Origin: Clostridiales bacterium
GTDB lineage: Bacteria; Actinomycetota; Coriobacteriia; Anaerosomatales; SLCP01
NCBI GenBank assembly: GCA_018333995.1
Contig: JAGXSG010000016.1
Location: 62,001 to 126,000 of the forward strand
Direction of reading: 5' to 3'
Length of the DNA stretch: 64,000 nt
Shown one piece after another: positions 4,904 through 60,872 of the stretch; position 1 is the first letter of the stretch; the number at the start of each line of letters is the position of its first letter. The notes beneath the pieces were generated by a model. The model did not search any database and was not told the origin of the DNA. It was given only the letters and a program-made list of their open reading frames with translations. Made by a program: the position numbers and the translations under genes.

Positions 4904-5060
4904 GACATGAAGCCTTTCGAAGAGTGGGTACCCGATATGCGAACCGACGATCACGGGCACCCGGGACAGCGGATAAGGGTAGCACGCCTAGCGGCGGAGT
5001 GACGAACCCGATCGGCCGTAGTCATAGTCCAATATGCGCACGCGGTCGCTGAAACGGTCA

Positions 5061-5090
5061 TTGTACGTGAGCGTACCGTTCGTGTAGACT
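5061..5090 (+). promoter_or_regulatory. Candidate sigma-70-type promoter of rubrerythrin
   Basis: TTGTAC at 5061-5066 and TAGACT at 5085-5090 are separated by 18 bases, 38 bases before the rubrerythrin ATG. This is a plausible vegetative promoter seen by eye only. Confidence 0.45.
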
Positions 5091-5128
5091 TTCAAATCGT
5101 AATGGTTCCGAACAATGGAGGATGACGA

Positions 5129-5701
5129 ATGAGCATCAGGGGCACCCGTACTGAGCAGAACCTGCTGAAGTCGTTCGCAGGTGAGTCCCAGGCGCGCAAC
5201 CGCTACACCTTCTACGCGTCGATCGCGAAGCAGGAGGGCTACGAGCAAATTGCCGCGCTCTTCCTCGAGACCGCCGAGAACGAGAAGGAGCATGCGAAGG
5301 TCTTCTACAAGTACCTTGAAGGCGGCGAGGTCGAGATCACCGCGGCGTATCCCGCGGGCACGCTCGGAAGTACCGCGGAAAACCTGCTCCACGCCGCCGA
5401 TGGCGAGAAGATGGAGTGGGGAACTCTCTACCCGGACTTCGCGGCCACAGCCGATGCGGAGGGTTTCCCCGAGATAGCCGAGTCGTTCAGGGAGATCGCC
5501 GAAGTCGAGGAGTTCCACGAGTCCCGCTACCGTACACTCCTGGCAAACGTCGAGGGAGGCACAGTGTTTATGCGTGCAGAGACCGTCAAGTGGCACTGTC
5601 GCAACTGCGGCTACGTCCACGAGGGTCCCGAGGCGCCCGAGCTCTGTCCCGCATGCGCGCACCCGCGCGCGCACTACGAGATCCTCGCCGAGAACTACTA
5701 G
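5129..5701 (+). CDS. rbr: Rubrerythrin
   Basis: A 190-residue rubrerythrin, a cytosolic non-haem di-iron peroxidase that removes hydrogen peroxide in anaerobes using electrons from rubredoxin or NADH-linked reductases. The ferritin-like four-helix part has the expected di-iron ligands: Glu19 in FAGES, Glu52 and His55 in ENEKEH, and Glu/His in EVEEFHE (125-131). The C-terminal rubredoxin-like domain has Cys157-x2-Cys160 and Cys173-x2-Cys176. A strong GGAGG precedes the ATG at 5129. It is a single-gene unit with its own promoter and a 15-bp hairpin after the stop. Confidence 0.97.
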
Positions 5702-52907: not shown

Positions 52908-53666
52908 ATGAGCCTCCTGTCAGATCTCGAGGACCGCATCGCCGCAGCTGTCGAAGGCGTGTTCGCAGGCGCGTTCCGCTCGCCTATCCAGCCCGCCGAG
53001 ATCGCTAAAGCGCTCGCCCGTGCGATGGACGACCGCACGGCTGTCGGCGTGGGCAAAGTCTACGCTCCCCACGTCTTCACCGTCGCGCTCTCCGAGGAAG
53101 ATGACGACGCGATCGGCCCGTTCCGGCCGACACTCGCAGGCGAGCTGGCAACCTTTCTCACCGGTCACGCCGCCGAGCGTGGCTACCATCTTGCGGCGCG
53201 TCCGCGGATCACATTTGCCGTTCACGACGACCTTAAGATCGGGCGCATCCGGGCGGCCGCTGAATCGGCGCCCGGCACCGAGCCCGAGCCCGACGCCGAT
53301 GCCGATGCGTCCCCCGAGCCCGAGCCACTCGAATCACGATCGCCCGCAGCGCCGCCGCCGCTCATCCCGTCGCCGCACACGATGGCGACGGTCACGGTGA
53401 GCGGCATCGAGCACGACGTCGTGCTGACCGGTGACCGGGTAACGGTGGGACGGCTTGCTTCGTGTGACATCACGCTCATCGATGCAAACGTATCGCGAGA
53501 GCACGCCGCGTTCGTGCGCGAGGGTACCGGTTGGGCTATCGAGGACCTAGGCTCCACCAACGGGACGATGCTCGAAGGTGAGCCTGTGACGTGGTCACGC
53601 CTGCGAGACGGTGACCGCGTAACACTCGGAACGAGCGAGCTTACCTACCACGAGCCGAGGAGATAG
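52908..53666 (+). CDS. fhaA: FhaA-like protein (DUF3662 and FHA domains)
   Basis: A 252-residue protein. Residues 1-110 are a DUF3662 domain (LSDLEDRIAAAVEGVFAGAF, QPAEIAKALARAMDD), then an acidic Pro/Glu linker to about 155, and a C-terminal FHA domain (TVGRLASCDITLIDANVSREHAAF, DLGSTNGTMLEG) that binds phosphothreonine. In mycobacteria FhaA binds the kinase and the MurJ-type flippase and links kinase signals to wall synthesis. It follows the kinase by 20 bases. Confidence 0.93.
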   Translation: MSLLSDLEDRIAAAVEGVFAGAFRSPIQPAEIAKALARAMDDRTAVGVGKVYAPHVFTVALSEEDDDAIGPFRPTLAGELATFLTGHAAERGYHLAARPRITFAVHDDLKIGRIRAAAESAPGTEPEPDADADASPEPEPLESRSPAAPPPLIPSPHTMATVTVSGIEHDVVLTGDRVTVGRLASCDITLIDANVSREHAAFVREGTGWAIEDLGSTNGTMLEGEPVTWSRLRDGDRVTLGTSELTYHEPRR

Positions 53667-53670
53667 ACCT

Positions 53671-54093
53671 GTGGTCGACATCGTCTTACTCGTTGGCAAG
53701 CTCGTTCTTCTCGCTCTCCTCTACCTGTTCCTTTTCGCGGCGGTGCGTGCGGGACTTGGATACGTCCGCGCCGCCGGACCCGCCGCCCCGGGCGCGCGGC
53801 TTGCCCTTGCGGTGGTCGAGGGTCCGCGGGCGCTCATGGGCACTCGCATCCCGATCGCGGGGCCGGTCGTCATCGGGCGTTCACCCGGCGCTGACATAGT
53901 GATCGCGGATGACTTCGTCTCTTCGACGCACGCGCGTGTGACCCCGGACACTGAGGGCGGAGCCGTCATCGAGGACCTCGGCTCGACAAACGGGACCGTC
54001 GTGAACGGTGTCCAGGTGGTGTCGGCCGTCACACTTTCAGCTGGTGACGTGATCGATCTTGGCACCGTCCGGCTCAAGGCGGTGAAAGAGTGA
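53671..54093 (+). CDS. fhaB: FhaB-like membrane FHA protein
   Basis: A 140-residue protein: one N-terminal membrane helix (residues 3-24), then a single FHA domain with VIGRSPGADIVIADDFVSSTHARV and DLGSTNGTVVNG. It corresponds to FhaB (FipA) of actinobacteria, which connects kinase signals to the division machinery. It starts at a GTG 4 bases after fhaA and overlaps the phosphatase start by 4 bases (GTGA). Confidence 0.9.
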   Translation: MVDIVLLVGKLVLLALLYLFLFAAVRAGLGYVRAAGPAAPGARLALAVVEGPRALMGTRIPIAGPVVIGRSPGADIVIADDFVSSTHARVTPDTEGGAVIEDLGSTNGTVVNGVQVVSAVTLSAGDVIDLGTVRLKAVKE

Positions 54094-55205
54094 GCGCGGT
54101 ATCTCGCAAGCGATGGTACGCCGGCCTGACCGACGTAGGCCGCGTCCGTACCCACAACGAAGACGCTGTCTTGCTCGAGCCGCCGCTTTTCGCTGTCGCT
54201 GACGGCTTGGGCGGACACGAAGCCGGCGAGGTCGCGAGCAGTGTGGCGCTCGGCGCGCTCGTCGAAGCCGCGCCCCGCAGGCCCGACGCCAAAGCTCTCG
54301 GCCGAGCGGTGCGAGCCGCAAACCGGGCGGTTATCTCGGCGGCGCGCGAGGGACTCGGACGCAATGGGATGGGCACGACCGTAACGGCTGCGCTCGTCGA
54401 GGGCACGCGCATCGCGATCGCCCACGTCGGCGACAGCCGGGCGTACCTTCTGCACGGTGACGGGTTGGAGCGCCTGACTGAAGACCACTCGCTCGTCGCG
54501 GACATGATCCGCTCGGGCACCATCACTGAAGAACAGTCGCGGACACACCCAAACCGAAGCGTCATCACCCGCGCGCTCGGCACCGACCCCAACATGTACC
54601 CTGACACCTTCGAGGTCGAAGCCGGAATCGGCGACCGTCTCCTGCTGTGCTCCGATGGACTCACGGGCATGCTTCCCGACGCCCGCATCGAAGAGATCCT
54701 CGACTCATACCGCGACCCCGAGATGGCTGTGCGCATGCTCGTCGACGCCGCCAACGAGGCGGGTGGGCACGACAATATCTCGGTAGCCGTGGTCGACATC
54801 GTCACCGGCCAGCATCGCTCGCCCGCAACTGAGCGACCCGGGCGCGGTTGGCTCTCCGCGCTCGTGTGGGTGTTCGCGGTTGTCGCCGTGCTCGGAATCG
54901 CGGTGTGGGGCACGTACCGCTACGCATACGACCGCGCGTACCTGGTGACTGAAGACCAGTACGTCGTGATCTACCGCGGCATACCCGGCGATTTCGCCGG
55001 CTTGCGTCTACGATGGCTCGAAGCCGAGACGACCGTCACCGCGAGCGCGCTCGATCCGGTAACCGCGCAACGCCTCGCGACAGGCGTGCCCGTGGAGAGC
55101 GTCGACGCCGCCTTCGAACTCATCGAGCTGTACCGGGCGCACCTCGAAACCCAAGGTGTCGACCCGAACGCCGGGCCTCCCCCCGCGGAGACCGGGACAC
55201 CGTAG
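54090..55205 (+). CDS. pstP: PP2C-type Ser/Thr protein phosphatase
   Basis: A 371-residue PPM phosphatase. The metal-binding and catalytic motifs are present in order: DVGRVRTHNEDAVL, VADGLGGHEAGEVAS, GMGTTVTAAL, HVGDSRAYLL, TEDHSLVADM, LCSDGLTGML and AGGHDNISVAVV. A membrane helix at about 250-272 and an outer tail of about 95 residues follow, as in PstP. It should remove phosphates placed by the block's kinases. GTG start at 54090, overlapping fhaB; the SEDS-PBP gene begins 2 bases after its stop. Confidence 0.95.
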   Translation: MSAVSRKRWYAGLTDVGRVRTHNEDAVLLEPPLFAVADGLGGHEAGEVASSVALGALVEAAPRRPDAKALGRAVRAANRAVISAAREGLGRNGMGTTVTAALVEGTRIAIAHVGDSRAYLLHGDGLERLTEDHSLVADMIRSGTITEEQSRTHPNRSVITRALGTDPNMYPDTFEVEAGIGDRLLLCSDGLTGMLPDARIEEILDSYRDPEMAVRMLVDAANEAGGHDNISVAVVDIVTGQHRSPATERPGRGWLSALVWVFAVVAVLGIAVWGTYRYAYDRAYLVTEDQYVVIYRGIPGDFAGLRLRWLEAETTVTASALDPVTAQRLATGVPVESVDAAFELIELYRAHLETQGVDPNAGPPPAETGTP

Positions 55206-55207
55206 CG

Positions 55208-57943
55208 GTGAGAACCCGCCGCCACACTGAGCTGCTCTTGCTCCTCGCGGCAGCGCCGGTGGTCCTACTCGTGTTCGGGCTTGTCAACGCGCGAGCGGCG
55301 GCCACGATCGGCTTTGCGGATCTTGCTGTGCCCGCGGGGCTTGTCGCCGCGTTCCTCGGCGCTCACCTCGCGGTCCGCCTCCTTGCGCCAGCCGCCGATC
55401 CGGTGTTGCTACCGCTCGCCGCGCTGCTCTCCGGCATCGGACTCGCATTCGTTACGCGCCTCGATCCTGAACTCGGCTCCCGGCAGCTCGTGTGGCTCCT
55501 CGTAAGTATCGGAGCGATGGTAGCAACCTTAGCCGCGGTGCGGTCGCTAGAGCGCGCCTCCCGGTTCAAGTACACGATCATGCTCGTCGCACTCGCCTTG
55601 CTTGTGCTGCCCACCCTCATCGGTGTCGAGGTCAACGGTGCCCGACTCTGGCTCAGGTTCGCCGGCTTGTCGTTCCAGCCCGGCGAAGTCGCCAAAGTGC
55701 TCATCGTCGTCTTTCTCGCCGCGTACTTGGCCGAGAAACGCGAGGTACTCTCGATATCGACCCGCCGAGTGCTCGGCGCGGGCGTGCCAGCGCTGCGCCA
55801 CCTCGGGCCCCTCGTGTTCATGTGGGCGATATCGTTATTCGTGCTCGTCACGCAGAAGGATCTCGGCTCGAGCTTGCTGTTCTTTGGACTGTTTCTCGTG
55901 ATGATCTTCGTCGCCACAGGACGGCTCGCCTACGTCATGGTTGGACTCGGACTGTTTGCCGCAGGCGCGGCCGTGGCCTACCAACTCTTCGGCCACGTGC
56001 AGTCCAGGGTCGCCATCTGGATCGACCCGTTCGCCGATCCGACCGGTCGCGGCTACCAGCTCGTCCAGTCGCTCTTCGCGCTCGCGGCCGGTCAGATGAC
56101 GGGCGTAGGCGTCGGGCGCGGACTCCCTGAACGCATCCCGTTTGTGGAGACCGACTTCATCTTCACCTCGATCGCAGAAGAACTCGGTCTGCTCGGCGGC
56201 GCGGCTCTCATCATTGCTTACCTGCTCTTCTGCATGCGTGGCCTGGCGACGGCTGCGCGAGCGCGCTCCGACATGGCGGCATTCACCGCAGCGGGACTTG
56301 TCGCTGCGTTTGGACTTCAGACCTTCGTCATCATCGGCGGAGTCACGCGCCTCATTCCCCTCACCGGCATCACGCTCCCGTTTGTGAGCTACGGCGGGTC
56401 ATCGATGCTCGCCAACTTCATGCTACTCGGACTGTTGCTGCGCGCTGGCGACGCCGGGACGGGCCGAGCCGCCGAGATAATCACCCTCGCCAGCGACGGC
56501 GGAGCGCTCGGCAGGGTCGCACTCGCGCGGCGGCTTGCGGGCGTGGCCACGCTGATTGGCGTACTGCTTGCGGCACTTGTCGTCAACCTCACCTACCTGC
56601 AGGTCGTGGTCGCTCGCGACCTCGACAGCCACCCCGCCAACACGCGCGGTCTCGCCTCCGAGATCCGGTCGCCGAGAGGCTCGATCGTAACCGCGGACGC
56701 CGTTGTTCTCGCGGATTCCGTAGCAAACGGCGAGCTGTACGCACGCCGCTATCCGCAGGGCTCGCTCGCGGCTCACGTCGTCGGATATCACACCCTCACG
56801 TACGGACGGGCTGGCATCGAGTCCTCCATGAACGGCGCGCTCACCGGGCAGCGGGTCTTTCGCACCTTCCGCGATGCGGTGGATGCCGCAGCCGGGTTGC
56901 CAGTGGCCGGCAACGACATCTGGCTCACCATCGACTCCCGGGTACAACAGGCCGCCGAGCAAGCGCTCGCGGGACGTCGCGGGTCGGTGGTCGCGCTCGA
57001 TCCGCGAACGGGCGCGGTGCTCGCGATGGCCTCGGTGCCCGCGTACGACCCGAACACAATCGATGCCGAGTGGGACGCGCTTTCCTCGGCAGAGGGATCC
57101 CCGCTGTTCGATCGAAGCATCCAGGGCCTCTACCCGCCTGGCTCCACGTACAAGATCGTGACGCTTACCGGAGCACTTGCGGCGAACACCGTCTCCGCCC
57201 AGACCACGTACACAGCCCCTGGGCGCCTTGAGATCGGAGGCGCTCCGGTCACCAACTACGAGGGCGGCGAGTACGGTGTCACCGACGTGCGCACCGCGAC
57301 GATGCGTTCGATCAACACCGTCTTCGCGCAGATCGCCGTAGACATGGGCGCCCGGGAGCTCGTCTCGGCGAGTGAGAGGTTTGGGGTGGGCAAGACCCCG
57401 CCGCTGGAGATCGAGGCGCGTGCGTCGCTCATGCCTGTCCCCGGCGAGATGACGACGTGGGAAACCGCGTGGGCGGGCGTGGGCCAGCCGGTGGGAGAGC
57501 ACGAAAGCCCGCCTGGGCCGCAGACCACGCCGCTTCAGATGGCGCTGGTGGCGGCGGGGATAGCCAACGACGGCAACGTGATGCGGCCTCATCTCGTGCA
57601 GCGTGTCACCGACTGGGCCGGACGCGTGATCACGACGACCGAACCGCGTCGCTGGACTACCGCGGCGGACCCGGCGGTCGCGGCGACCGTGCGCGACATC
57701 ATGGTCGCGTCGGTAGAGTCCGGCACGGGTACCCGCGCGCGTATCCCCGGCGTCGCGGTGGCGGGCAAGACGGGGACCGCGCAGGCGGGGCGCACCGTCG
57801 AATCGCACGCGTGGTTCATCGGGTTCGCCCCCGCGAACGATCCGCAGGTCGCGGTGGCCGTCATCGTGGAGAAAGCAGGGCCTGGCGGGCGGATCGCGGC
57901 ACCGGTCGCCCGCTCAGTGATCGAAGCGGCGCTCGCGCGGTGA
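55208..57943 (+). CDS. RodA/FtsW-type SEDS glycosyltransferase fused to a class B penicillin-binding protein
   Basis: A single 911-residue frame holding both septal/elongation peptidoglycan synthesis activities. Residues 1-420 are a SEDS polytopic protein with IDPFADPTGRGYQLVQSL and ETDFIFTSIAEELG motifs of RodA/FtsW. A membrane helix near 440-460 then starts the PBP: a dimerisation region and the transpeptidase with GSTYK (Ser646, Lys649), SIN (701-703) and KTGTAQ (Lys854). There is no stop or frameshift between, and no sign of a second start. In other actinobacteria rodA and pbpA are neighbouring genes at this place. The GTG at 55208 lies 2 bases after pstP. Confidence 0.93.
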   Translation: MRTRRHTELLLLLAAAPVVLLVFGLVNARAAATIGFADLAVPAGLVAAFLGAHLAVRLLAPAADPVLLPLAALLSGIGLAFVTRLDPELGSRQLVWLLVSIGAMVATLAAVRSLERASRFKYTIMLVALALLVLPTLIGVEVNGARLWLRFAGLSFQPGEVAKVLIVVFLAAYLAEKREVLSISTRRVLGAGVPALRHLGPLVFMWAISLFVLVTQKDLGSSLLFFGLFLVMIFVATGRLAYVMVGLGLFAAGAAVAYQLFGHVQSRVAIWIDPFADPTGRGYQLVQSLFALAAGQMTGVGVGRGLPERIPFVETDFIFTSIAEELGLLGGAALIIAYLLFCMRGLATAARARSDMAAFTAAGLVAAFGLQTFVIIGGVTRLIPLTGITLPFVSYGGSSMLANFMLLGLLLRAGDAGTGRAAEIITLASDGGALGRVALARRLAGVATLIGVLLAALVVNLTYLQVVVARDLDSHPANTRGLASEIRSPRGSIVTADAVVLADSVANGELYARRYPQGSLAAHVVGYHTLTYGRAGIESSMNGALTGQRVFRTFRDAVDAAAGLPVAGNDIWLTIDSRVQQAAEQALAGRRGSVVALDPRTGAVLAMASVPAYDPNTIDAEWDALSSAEGSPLFDRSIQGLYPPGSTYKIVTLTGALAANTVSAQTTYTAPGRLEIGGAPVTNYEGGEYGVTDVRTATMRSINTVFAQIAVDMGARELVSASERFGVGKTPPLEIEARASLMPVPGEMTTWETAWAGVGQPVGEHESPPGPQTTPLQMALVAAGIANDGNVMRPHLVQRVTDWAGRVITTTEPRRWTTAADPAVAATVRDIMVASVESGTGTRARIPGVAVAGKTGTAQAGRTVESHAWFIGFAPANDPQVAVAVIVEKAGPGGRIAAPVARSVIEAALAR

Positions 57944-58042: not shown

Positions 58043-59935
58043 GTGGATGACATGGTATTCGGACGTAGATACCGGGTGACCGAGAAGATCGGTTCGGGGG
58101 GCATGGCGGATGTCTTCAAGGCCGTCGACGAGGTGCTCGGCCGTACCGTCGCTGTCAAAGTCCTCCACGCTCGCTACGCTGCCGACCCCGGGTTTGTGGC
58201 CCGCTTCCGCCAGGAGGCGCAGTCCGCGGCGAACCTGTCCCACCCCGGCATCGTCAACATGTACGACTGGGGCCGTGACGGCGAGACGTACTACATCGTC
58301 ATGGAGTACGTGCGCGGCACCGACCTCAAGCACCTCATCGAGGAGCGCGGCCCGATCGACCCGATGAACGCCGCCGAATACGCCTCGCAAGTGTGCGCGG
58401 CGCTCGCCGTCGCTCACGGATACGACATCATCCACCGGGACATCAAGCCGCACAACATCGTGCTCACGCCTGACGGCGCGGTCAAAGTCATGGACTTTGG
58501 CATCGCGCGAGCGGGCAACACGACCATGACGCAGACCGGCTCAGTGCTCGGAACGGCGCACTACGTGAGCCCCGAGCAGGCACAAGGCCGCGCGCTCGGC
58601 CCCGCGAGCGATCTGTACTCGCTCGGCATCGTGCTCTACGAGCTCACTACCGGGCGGCTCCCGTTCGATGCGGACACACCGGTCGCCGTCGCGCTCAAGC
58701 AGGTAAACGAGCAGCCGGTTTCGCCGCGCCAGCTCAACCCGCAGATCCCCGCGTCACTCGAAGCGGTCATCATGCGAGCGCTCCAGAAGGATCCGGCGGC
58801 CCGCTACGCGTCCGCCGAGGAGATGCGCGCGGACCTGAAGCGAGTTCTTAGCGGGGGCGTCGTCGAGGCGGTCGCCGCGGTGGCCGCAACCGGTGCGCCG
58901 ACGGGCGAGATGTCGTCACACACATCTGTCATGCCCGCGGTCGGCTCTGGCGGAAGAGGCGCATCCGCCCCTTCTACGCCGGGCTCAGGGCCTCCGCGCA
59001 TAAGGCCGGTGCCACAGCGCCGCAACCCATGGCCGTGGATCGCGGCAATCGCACTCGTGCTCATCGCAGGACTCAGTGCCGCGTGGGCGATGGGCGCATT
59101 CGATATCACGCCAAAGGTTCCCGCGCCAGACCTTACCGGAAAGACCGTCGATCAGGCGCGTGAAGCACTCGAAGAGGTGGGCCTCACCCTCGGCACGATC
59201 GAGGAATCGCACAGCGATGAGTACGAGCCCGGTCTGGTAATCGACCAGTCGCCCGAACCCGGCATATCGATCCAGGAGGGTTCAGAGGTTGCCGTAACCG
59301 TTAGTCTCGGCGCAAACGTGTCCGAGGTACCCAACGTTGTCGATCTTCCTGAGAGCGAGGCCATCCGGATGTTGCGAGACGCCGGATTCGACTTCGATCC
59401 CCGCCGCGAATACAACGTGGACGTCGCGGCCGATACCGTCTTCAAGCAGGAGCCTGCTGCGGGGGCAATGGCCGCTCCCGGCGCAATCGTGACGATTTTC
59501 GTAAGCCGCGGCTCGGAACTGCGCCGGGTACCCGATGTCGTCGAGCGGACGGCTGAGCAGGCGACAGCGGACCTCGAGGCGGCTGGATTCAAGGTCGCGG
59601 TAGCCGAGGAGTTCAGCGACACGGTGCGCGAGGGCCGTGTGGTCAGCCAAAGCCCAGACGGCGGCGTATCGATCGACGTCGGATCGACGGTGACGATCCG
59701 CATATCGCAAGGACCAAACACCGTGACTGTTCCGGATGTCATCGGCAAGACGGAAGCCGAGGCGCGAAGCGCCCTTGCCGCTGTCAACCTGCGAACAGAG
59801 GTCACCTACCAAGAAGACCCGCGCGACGGTGTCGTGCTCACCCAAAGCCCAATACCGGGCGCCACCGCGCGCCCCAATGATCAGGTGCGCATCACTGTTG
59901 GCAAAGCCCCCGCGGTCGATGGCGGCGGCGAGTAG
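58043..59935 (+). CDS. pknB: PASTA-domain Ser/Thr protein kinase (PknB-like)
   Basis: A 630-residue single-pass kinase. The kinase domain (1-265) has GSGGMADVF, Lys39, HRDIKPHN with catalytic Asp133, DFGIA and GTAHYVSPEQ. A juxtamembrane linker, a membrane helix near 328-350 (WIAAIALVLIAGLSAAWAMG), and four outer PASTA repeats at about 355-625 follow, each with a P-x-V/L and a Q-x-P-x-x-G pattern, which bind muropeptides or lipid II. The GTG at 58043 has TTGGAG 7 bases upstream. It lies 99 bases after the SEDS-PBP gene and closes the cell-wall signalling block. Confidence 0.96.
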   Translation: MDDMVFGRRYRVTEKIGSGGMADVFKAVDEVLGRTVAVKVLHARYAADPGFVARFRQEAQSAANLSHPGIVNMYDWGRDGETYYIVMEYVRGTDLKHLIEERGPIDPMNAAEYASQVCAALAVAHGYDIIHRDIKPHNIVLTPDGAVKVMDFGIARAGNTTMTQTGSVLGTAHYVSPEQAQGRALGPASDLYSLGIVLYELTTGRLPFDADTPVAVALKQVNEQPVSPRQLNPQIPASLEAVIMRALQKDPAARYASAEEMRADLKRVLSGGVVEAVAAVAATGAPTGEMSSHTSVMPAVGSGGRGASAPSTPGSGPPRIRPVPQRRNPWPWIAAIALVLIAGLSAAWAMGAFDITPKVPAPDLTGKTVDQAREALEEVGLTLGTIEESHSDEYEPGLVIDQSPEPGISIQEGSEVAVTVSLGANVSEVPNVVDLPESEAIRMLRDAGFDFDPRREYNVDVAADTVFKQEPAAGAMAAPGAIVTIFVSRGSELRRVPDVVERTAEQATADLEAAGFKVAVAEEFSDTVREGRVVSQSPDGGVSIDVGSTVTIRISQGPNTVTVPDVIGKTEAEARSALAAVNLRTEVTYQEDPRDGVVLTQSPIPGATARPNDQVRITVGKAPAVDGGGE

Positions 59936-60023
59936 GCGGCTCGCGGCGGCATTGTGCTCACAGATTATTCCGCGCCCTGGAGCGAGCCGGGCTTCTCGGC
60001 TACCATGTACGAGCGCGTCATGG

Positions 60024-60099
60024 GCCCCCGTAGCTCAGGGGATAGAGCACAGGTTTCCTAAACCTGGTGTCGCACGTTCGAATCGTGCCGGGGGCACCA
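60024..60099 (+). tRNA. tRNA-Arg(CCT)
   Basis: A complete 76-nt tRNA on the plus strand. The acceptor stem GCCCCCG pairs with CGGGGGC, the anticodon stem CAGGT/ACCTG holds loop TTCCTAA with anticodon CCT, the T loop is TTCGAAT, and the CCA tail is encoded. It reads the AGG arginine codon. Confidence 0.95.
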
Positions 60100-60111
60100 C
60101 AGAAATTGCAG

Positions 60112-60138
60112 GCGGGAGAGGACAAGCCCCTCTCCCGC
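60112..60138 (+). terminator. Terminator hairpin after tRNA-Arg
   Basis: GCGGGAGAGG (60112-60121) pairs with CCTCTCCCGC (60129-60138) around a 7-base loop, with a TTCCTGTTT tract after it. It lies 12 bases beyond the tRNA end. Confidence 0.75.
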
Positions 60139-60239
60139 TTCCTGTTTCCCAAACCTCGTACCGGCCCAACACGCAGGCTGAACGTTCGGCCTTGTTGCCG
60201 CCGGGATGGGCGATCACCGTCAACGACGTGGACAGACGG

Positions 60240-60872
60240 TTACGCGATGCCCGTCTGGCGCCAGACCCCCGCAGCCAGCGAAAAAGACGGCAGGTACCAC
60301 GTGAACGCCCCGGCGAAGTGTCCCACCATGTCCCGCCGCATGAACGTTCCCAGGGTGTCGCCCGAGTCGAGTGTCATGACCACAACCCACCCCACGATCA
60401 CCATGACGGTTGCCAGCACCGCCAGATGCACTAACCCCCTCGCGCTGAATCCTTGCCGGATCGTGCTGATGAACGAGAACGCCATCGGTGCCGCAAGGAT
60501 GATGACCGTGATCGCCGAGAGAACCGTCATGACCGCGAAGTTCTCAGGGACGAGAAAGACGCTCAGTGGGATCACGATCAACATCATCGCCAAGAACAGC
60601 AAGGTGACGCCGGTCAACGCGACGAGCGGAGCAAGCACCGCGCTGCGGATAGCGAGTGTGCGCGCGTCGTCTCTGGAATCGGTGGCAAAAACGACCGCGG
60701 GTCCAAGAACAAATGGGCCGACGATGAGCGCAAGGTAGGCTGGGGTGAACACATCTATCGAAAGAGTGTCGATCAGGAACAGCGCCGGGGCGAGAAGAAG
60801 AGCGGTACACGCGTAGACGAGCCCGTAGGTGCCAAGCACACGCGGTGCGAAACCTTGTGGCGGAAAGTCCAC
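60240..60872 (-). CDS. Polytopic membrane protein, possibly Yip1-like
   Basis: A 210-residue protein with five membrane segments spread evenly from residue 15 to 205. The size and spacing recall Yip1-domain proteins, but no specific motif is clear. The GTG at 60872 has AGGAG 5 bases upstream. It is convergent with tRNA-Arg and its terminator. The function is unknown. Confidence 0.55.
   Translation of the reverse strand: MDFPPQGFAPRVLGTYGLVYACTALLLAPALFLIDTLSIDVFTPAYLALIVGPFVLGPAVVFATDSRDDARTLAIRSAVLAPLVALTGVTLLFLAMMLIVIPLSVFLVPENFAVMTVLSAITVIILAAPMAFSFISTIRQGFSARGLVHLAVLATVMVIVGWVVVMTLDSGDTLGTFMRRDMVGHFAGAFTWYLPSFSLAAGVWRQTGIA

Follow-up and report, generated by a model that had tools for sequence, protein, structure and literature searches.

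A rodA–pbpA gene fusion encoding a SEDS polymerase and a class B PBP in one frame across the Coriobacteriia

Results

A SEDS domain and a complete transpeptidase share one reading frame

The window, by which we mean the whole stretch of 64,000 nucleotides that was analysed, comes from a draft genome of 1.95 Mb whose nearest relatives are Coriobacteriia. The region of interest lies on its + strand, where a single frame runs from a SEDS (FtsW/RodA) domain through a pedestal of the PbpA type into the complete transpeptidase of a class B PBP (bPBP), flanked by FHA, PP2C and PASTA-kinase genes identified by domain search. The features are as follows.

52908 to 53666, + strand: FhaA-like FHA-domain protein (domain search)
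53671 to 54093, + strand: second FHA-domain protein (domain search)
54090 to 55205, + strand: PP2C phosphatase (PstP-like), directly upstream of the fused gene (domain search)
55208 to 57943, + strand: fused rodA–pbpA gene, GTG start, TGA stop, 911 amino acids, one stop-free frame
55208 to 56461, + strand: SEDS (RodA/FtsW) polymerase domain, residues 1-418 (PF01098, AlphaFold2 helices, matches to PDB RodA/FtsW chains)
55685 to 55696, + strand: SEDS cavity residues Glu160 and Lys163 (QPGEVAK), equivalent by alignment to Glu114 and Lys117 of Escherichia coli RodA
56153 to 56155, + strand: codon of the putative catalytic Asp316 (TDFIF), aligned with Asp262 of E. coli RodA (8tj3_B)
56462 to 56503, + strand: disordered cytoplasmic interdomain linker, residues ~419-432 (pLDDT <50; linker alignment)
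56513 to 56608, + strand: N-terminal transmembrane helix of the bPBP, residues 436-467 (model helix; hydropathy 2.44)
56675 to 56920, + strand: PbpA-type pedestal (PBP_dimer_2), residues 490-571 (PF21922, E=3.4e-17)
56981 to 57925, + strand: transpeptidase domain, residues 592-906 (PF00905; motifs; PDB 4MNR and Atopobium parvulum entries)
57140 to 57154, + strand: SxxK motif, GSTYK, residues 645-649
57308 to 57316, + strand: SxN motif, SIN, residues 701-703
57767 to 57775, + strand: KTG motif, residues 854-856
58043 to 59935, + strand: PASTA-domain Ser/Thr kinase of the PknB type, immediately downstream of the fused gene (domain search)

The open reading frame at 59736-60434 holds, at about 60000-60100 of the window, the peptide PVAQGIEHRFPKPGVARSNRAGGT, which is typical of a translated tRNA gene, and a tRNA gene probably lies there.

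An earlier note, made from the letters of the window, had described a SEDS–class B PBP fusion in one 911-residue protein, and the uninterrupted frame, the motifs and three Pfam domains confirm it. The Pfam search placed FTSW_RODA_SPOVE (PF01098) at residues 91-413 (E=1.4e-74), the PbpA dimerisation domain at 490-571 and Transpeptidase (PF00905) at 592-906 (E=4.1e-58); a GT51 domain gave no match in the fused protein in the same search.

Residue conservation was scored in an alignment (A1) of 66 fused homologues, and the catalytic residues of the transpeptidase SxxK, SxN and KTG motifs show no variation across these sequences. For the SEDS half, D277 of the WxDPFADP stretch was entertained as a catalytic Asp lost in some lineages; this was rejected, as alignment with E. 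coli RodA gives D316. D316 is invariant (66/66 rows of A1), and a reading of the SEDS half as a dead polymerase was rejected on that ground; its E. coli counterpart, Asp262, is the catalytic SEDS Asp and lies in periplasmic loop 4 (PMC10449877). Of the two cavity residues, Glu160 is E in 66/66 and Lys163 is K in 61/66 and R in the remainder. The acidic residues 273 and 277 of the WxDPFxD stretch (56024-56038) vary in A1 (D/H/N and D/Y/E/N/H respectively), where Asp316 is invariant, and are still more variable among unfused orthologues from the PknB-linked SEDS subfamily.

The transpeptidase is predicted to keep its own membrane anchor

An AlphaFold2 model of the fused protein, built with the 66 fused homologues, reached a pLDDT of 89 and a pTM of 0.80. 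Twelve long helices make up its SEDS part: ten are canonical, and the two at the N-terminus (2-30 and 36-59) are extra. Unfused actinobacterial orthologues, which align from residue 3-5, also cover the region of these two. PDB RodA/FtsW chains were matched by the SEDS half; among the 50 Foldseek matches shown, the transpeptidase half alone was matched. The transpeptidase had earlier been placed on the last SEDS helix, which the model does not bear out: the bPBP is predicted to have a transmembrane helix of its own (436-467), separate from the SEDS helices and joined to the last of them by a disordered cytoplasmic linker of about 15-20 residues, with pLDDT <50 at 419-432. In some Atopobiaceae and Collinsella-like genomes (L062, L085, L052, L057, L081) the linker reaches roughly 100 residues with conserved flanks, and the expanded form is possibly a regulatory segment.

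One alternative is that the frame is fused and yet two proteins are made, either from an internal start or by proteolysis in the linker. The disorder and very variable length of the linker would fit this, as would the in-frame ATG, GTG or TTG that most relatives have somewhere near it. However, these codons fall at scattered positions, with an SD-like 4-mer upstream in just 11/66, and the candidates in the window lie only inside transmembrane helices and without an SD. No promoter was found within the fused gene, nor was a plausible ribosome-binding site with a start found before the PBP part of the window gene, and across the 66 relatives there was no conserved internal start preceded by an SD. 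A promoter and start yielding a separate PBP, which the earlier note had named as one case against a fusion, thus failed to appear when searched for, and we regard the production of two proteins as improbable. The fused gene implies a 1:1 synthesis ratio of SEDS and bPBP; the fixed 1:1 ratio claimed earlier holds in this respect, for synthesis from a single gene.

The fusion is one of three SEDS genes in its genome

The source genome has three SEDS genes, namely ftsW, rodA and the fusion. On contig C31 ftsW has an FtsI-like bPBP nearby, and on contig C28 rodA stands beside an mrdA-like bPBP, near mreB. Exactly three SEDS genes were counted in 93 of 100 class genomes, and MreB in all 100. Since separate ftsW, ftsI, rodA and mrdA are kept, the fusion would, on gene content, be a third SEDS–bPBP synthase beside FtsW–FtsI and RodA–PBP2. 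That it instead replaces the RodA–PBP2 elongasome pair as the sole elongation synthase could be argued from Corynebacterium glutamicum, in which RodA–PBP2b (pbpA) is the elongation SEDS–bPBP synthase (PMC8262863), but the retention of mreB with adjacent mrdA–rodA and of ftsW with ftsI in the same genome, and the counts of three SEDS genes and of MreB across the class, make this very unlikely.

The fused frame is shared across the class

Of 79 loci drawn from genome contigs, 77 belong to Coriobacteriia or group there, and in 77/77 of these the junction is read through in one frame. In the remaining two (L080 and L084) the SEDS and PBP are separate adjacent genes; both had given full-length tblastn matches, and as fusions they were rejected because each proved to be two genes read through a stop. 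Long frames in five further Actinomycetota genomes (G284, G253, G222, G208 and G328) were likewise rejected as fusions, being upstream extensions. One of the 77 loci (L042, JADIIM010000043.1) comes from a MAG named Aeromicrobium sp., whose protein is 66% identical to that of the window; this taxon label looks wrong.

The fused protein was matched at E<=1e-90 in 185/199 class genomes, with no stop in the matches listed. Ten genomes without a full-length match were checked: in six a contig ends at the locus, and in one of these the gene extends past the contig end; in the other four the neighbouring PASTA kinase, or what else makes up the locus, is missing too, so that no true loss of the fused gene was shown among the ten. 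Six draft genomes (G013, G014, G015, G027, G029 and G039) break exactly here, between the PP2C and kinase genes, and the fused locus may be hard to assemble. In a complete, one-contig genome (G080) the fused gene is broken (L152, G080:C1:2358000-2366000, reverse-complement ~5030-5280) by a stretch with Illumina Nextera adapter/P7 index sequence in it; the disruption was rejected as biology and put down to adapter contamination in the public assembly.

Because the junction is read through in 77/77 Coriobacteriia loci, the comparison excludes chance or a local sequencing error as the source of the fusion. An assembly or sequencing error that masks a stop codon or a shift of frame separating two genes, which the earlier note had allowed for at 56380-56640, can be set aside: other genomes do show errors at the locus, as the adapter in G080 illustrates, but 77/77 independent loci, isolate genomes included, keep the frame open and the sequence on either side of the linker is conserved.

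Two adjacent genes merged in place in Coriobacteriia, and the same pair fused again in Clostridia

The fused gene occupies the position of rodA and pbpA in other actinobacteria, as the earlier note had it; it lies between PP2C and PASTA kinase genes, with FHA genes alongside. Among relatives with full flanks, PP2C is directly upstream in 44/46 by strict coordinates and was matched in 46/46, and FHA genes and the PASTA kinase are present in 46/46 each. In other Actinomycetota the SEDS and PbpA genes are two adjacent or overlapping genes in 20/20 loci examined (L130–L148 and L080, of which L130 and L080 are one genome), and all four unfused actinomycetotal loci that were checked likewise have FHA/PP2C and PASTA-kinase neighbours. 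In a joint tree, a single clade (SH-aLRT 100) unites the Coriobacteriia fusions and adjoins an unfused lineage (L142). Because 77/77 class loci are fused and the other actinobacterial loci have two genes, we conclude from these comparisons that adjacent rodA and pbpA merged in situ a single time, no later than the base of Coriobacteriia. The earlier claim of a merger in place is supported in this way by the unfused adjacent genes of other Actinomycetota, and the matter it had left undecided, a unique case or a lineage trait, is settled in favour of a lineage trait, shared by the whole class Coriobacteriia and seen independently in Clostridia.

In Bacillota, 8 of the 30 best loci are fused (L162, L164–L169 and L177), and L162 stands apart from the rest on the tree. 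The joint tree requires at least three changes between the fused and unfused states, and an AU test rejected all fusions as a single clade (p-AU 6.7e-5). On this phylogenetic evidence the SEDS–PBP fusions of Clostridia are independent of that of Coriobacteriia, the same pair having been fused repeatedly. Those Clostridia fusions that have enough flanking sequence also adjoin PP2C, FHA and/or PASTA-type kinase genes.

Discussion

We propose that the fused gene very probably encodes a single-chain peptidoglycan synthase, a third SEDS–bPBP unit that arose from merged adjacent rodA and pbpA. In this organism the SEDS half would polymerise lipid II and the PbpA-type bPBP half would crosslink the new strand, functions that we infer from the conserved residues of the two halves. 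SEDS proteins have a cytoplasmic C-terminus and bPBPs a cytoplasmic N-terminus, a topology that is compatible with an end-to-end fusion. A short flexible cytoplasmic linker would run from the last SEDS helix to the separate membrane anchor of the bPBP, and a membrane contact of the RodA–PBP2 type, here presumably intramolecular, would thereby still be possible while stoichiometry and pairing are fixed. As to origin, the adjacent rodA and pbpA of a PP2C–rodA–pbpA–pknB cluster merged before Coriobacteriia diversified.

Control of the fusion probably lies with the adjacent PASTA kinase and PP2C phosphatase. The RodA–PBP2b synthase of Corynebacteriales acts in polar elongation and has an effect on the separation of daughter cells (PMC8262863), and by orthology the fusion, controlled by the PASTA kinase, most likely makes peptidoglycan at the poles or at new septa. 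A broader and decidedly speculative idea, which we hold to be rather unlikely as a whole, is that Coriobacteriia fixed one of three SEDS–bPBP pairs as an obligatory single chain, a natural equivalent, built on SEDS, of the bifunctional class A PBPs, in which the linker is regulatory, for example as a target of the PASTA kinase, and that repeated fusion is limited to the PknB-linked pair.

SEDS–bPBP enzymes are usually studied as two-protein complexes. A class in which one pair is welded together and FtsW–FtsI and RodA–PBP2 stay separate is a natural test of how permanent the pairing is, and the implication is that the PknB-linked pair can tolerate being associated 1:1 permanently. Structural and inhibitor work also gains a ready source of single-chain proteins, some of them from human-gut species.

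Natural SEDS–PBP fusions are, as a kind, rare and already known, and the novelty here is modest. The earlier note had implied more, which is too high an estimate given that natural fusions are in print and that PDB entries exist for the transpeptidase half. Such fusions were noted by Nygaard et al. (2023), citing the genome of Rhodococcus sp. RHA1, and synthetic SEDS–bPBP fusions are functional (PMC10449877). The former likewise join SEDS and PBP in a single frame but were reported without a survey. In the present case a whole class has the fusion as a fixed trait, and it recurs in Clostridia. Neither its fixation throughout the class nor its repeated origin appears to have been described, no account of either having been found in the open-licence papers searched.

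Transpeptidase halves of these proteins have been in the PDB since 2013, from Eggerthella lenta (4MNR) and from A. parvulum (4JBF, 4N1X, 4QJG, 4RA7 and others), as 'peptidoglycan glycosyltransferase' and with the periplasmic half alone solved; the titles of the A. parvulum entries name complexes with beta-lactams (penicillins and cephalosporins). Except for the first aligned residue, 4MNR agrees in every position with residues 469-917 of a Coriobacteriia fused protein (G102), and is therefore the transpeptidase half of a member of this fusion family. After these structures the next closest is PbpA of Mycobacterium tuberculosis (3upp_A), whose fold resembles that of the fusion's transpeptidase half with a TM score of 0.87 normalised by target.

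Among the closest known systems is the RodA–PbpA pair of Mycobacterium and Corynebacterium, encoded in a pstP–rodA–pbpA–pknA–pknB cluster that, like the fusion locus, has FHA, PP2C and PASTA-kinase neighbours. Its PbpA and the transpeptidase half of the fusion have the same type of pedestal (PF21922), and unfused actinobacterial SEDS orthologues can be aligned with the SEDS half of the fusion starting at the first residues of the latter. The mycobacterial and corynebacterial pair is, however, two polypeptides, whereas Coriobacteriia have one, together with a separate MreB–RodA–PBP2 set. The engineered E. coli RodA–PBP2 protein (8TJ3) has the same order, SEDS then PBP, with a linker between the termini and the bPBP helix kept, but is man-made, with a TSGSGSGS linker, and is of the MrdA type, whereas the fusion of Coriobacteriia is of the PbpA type.
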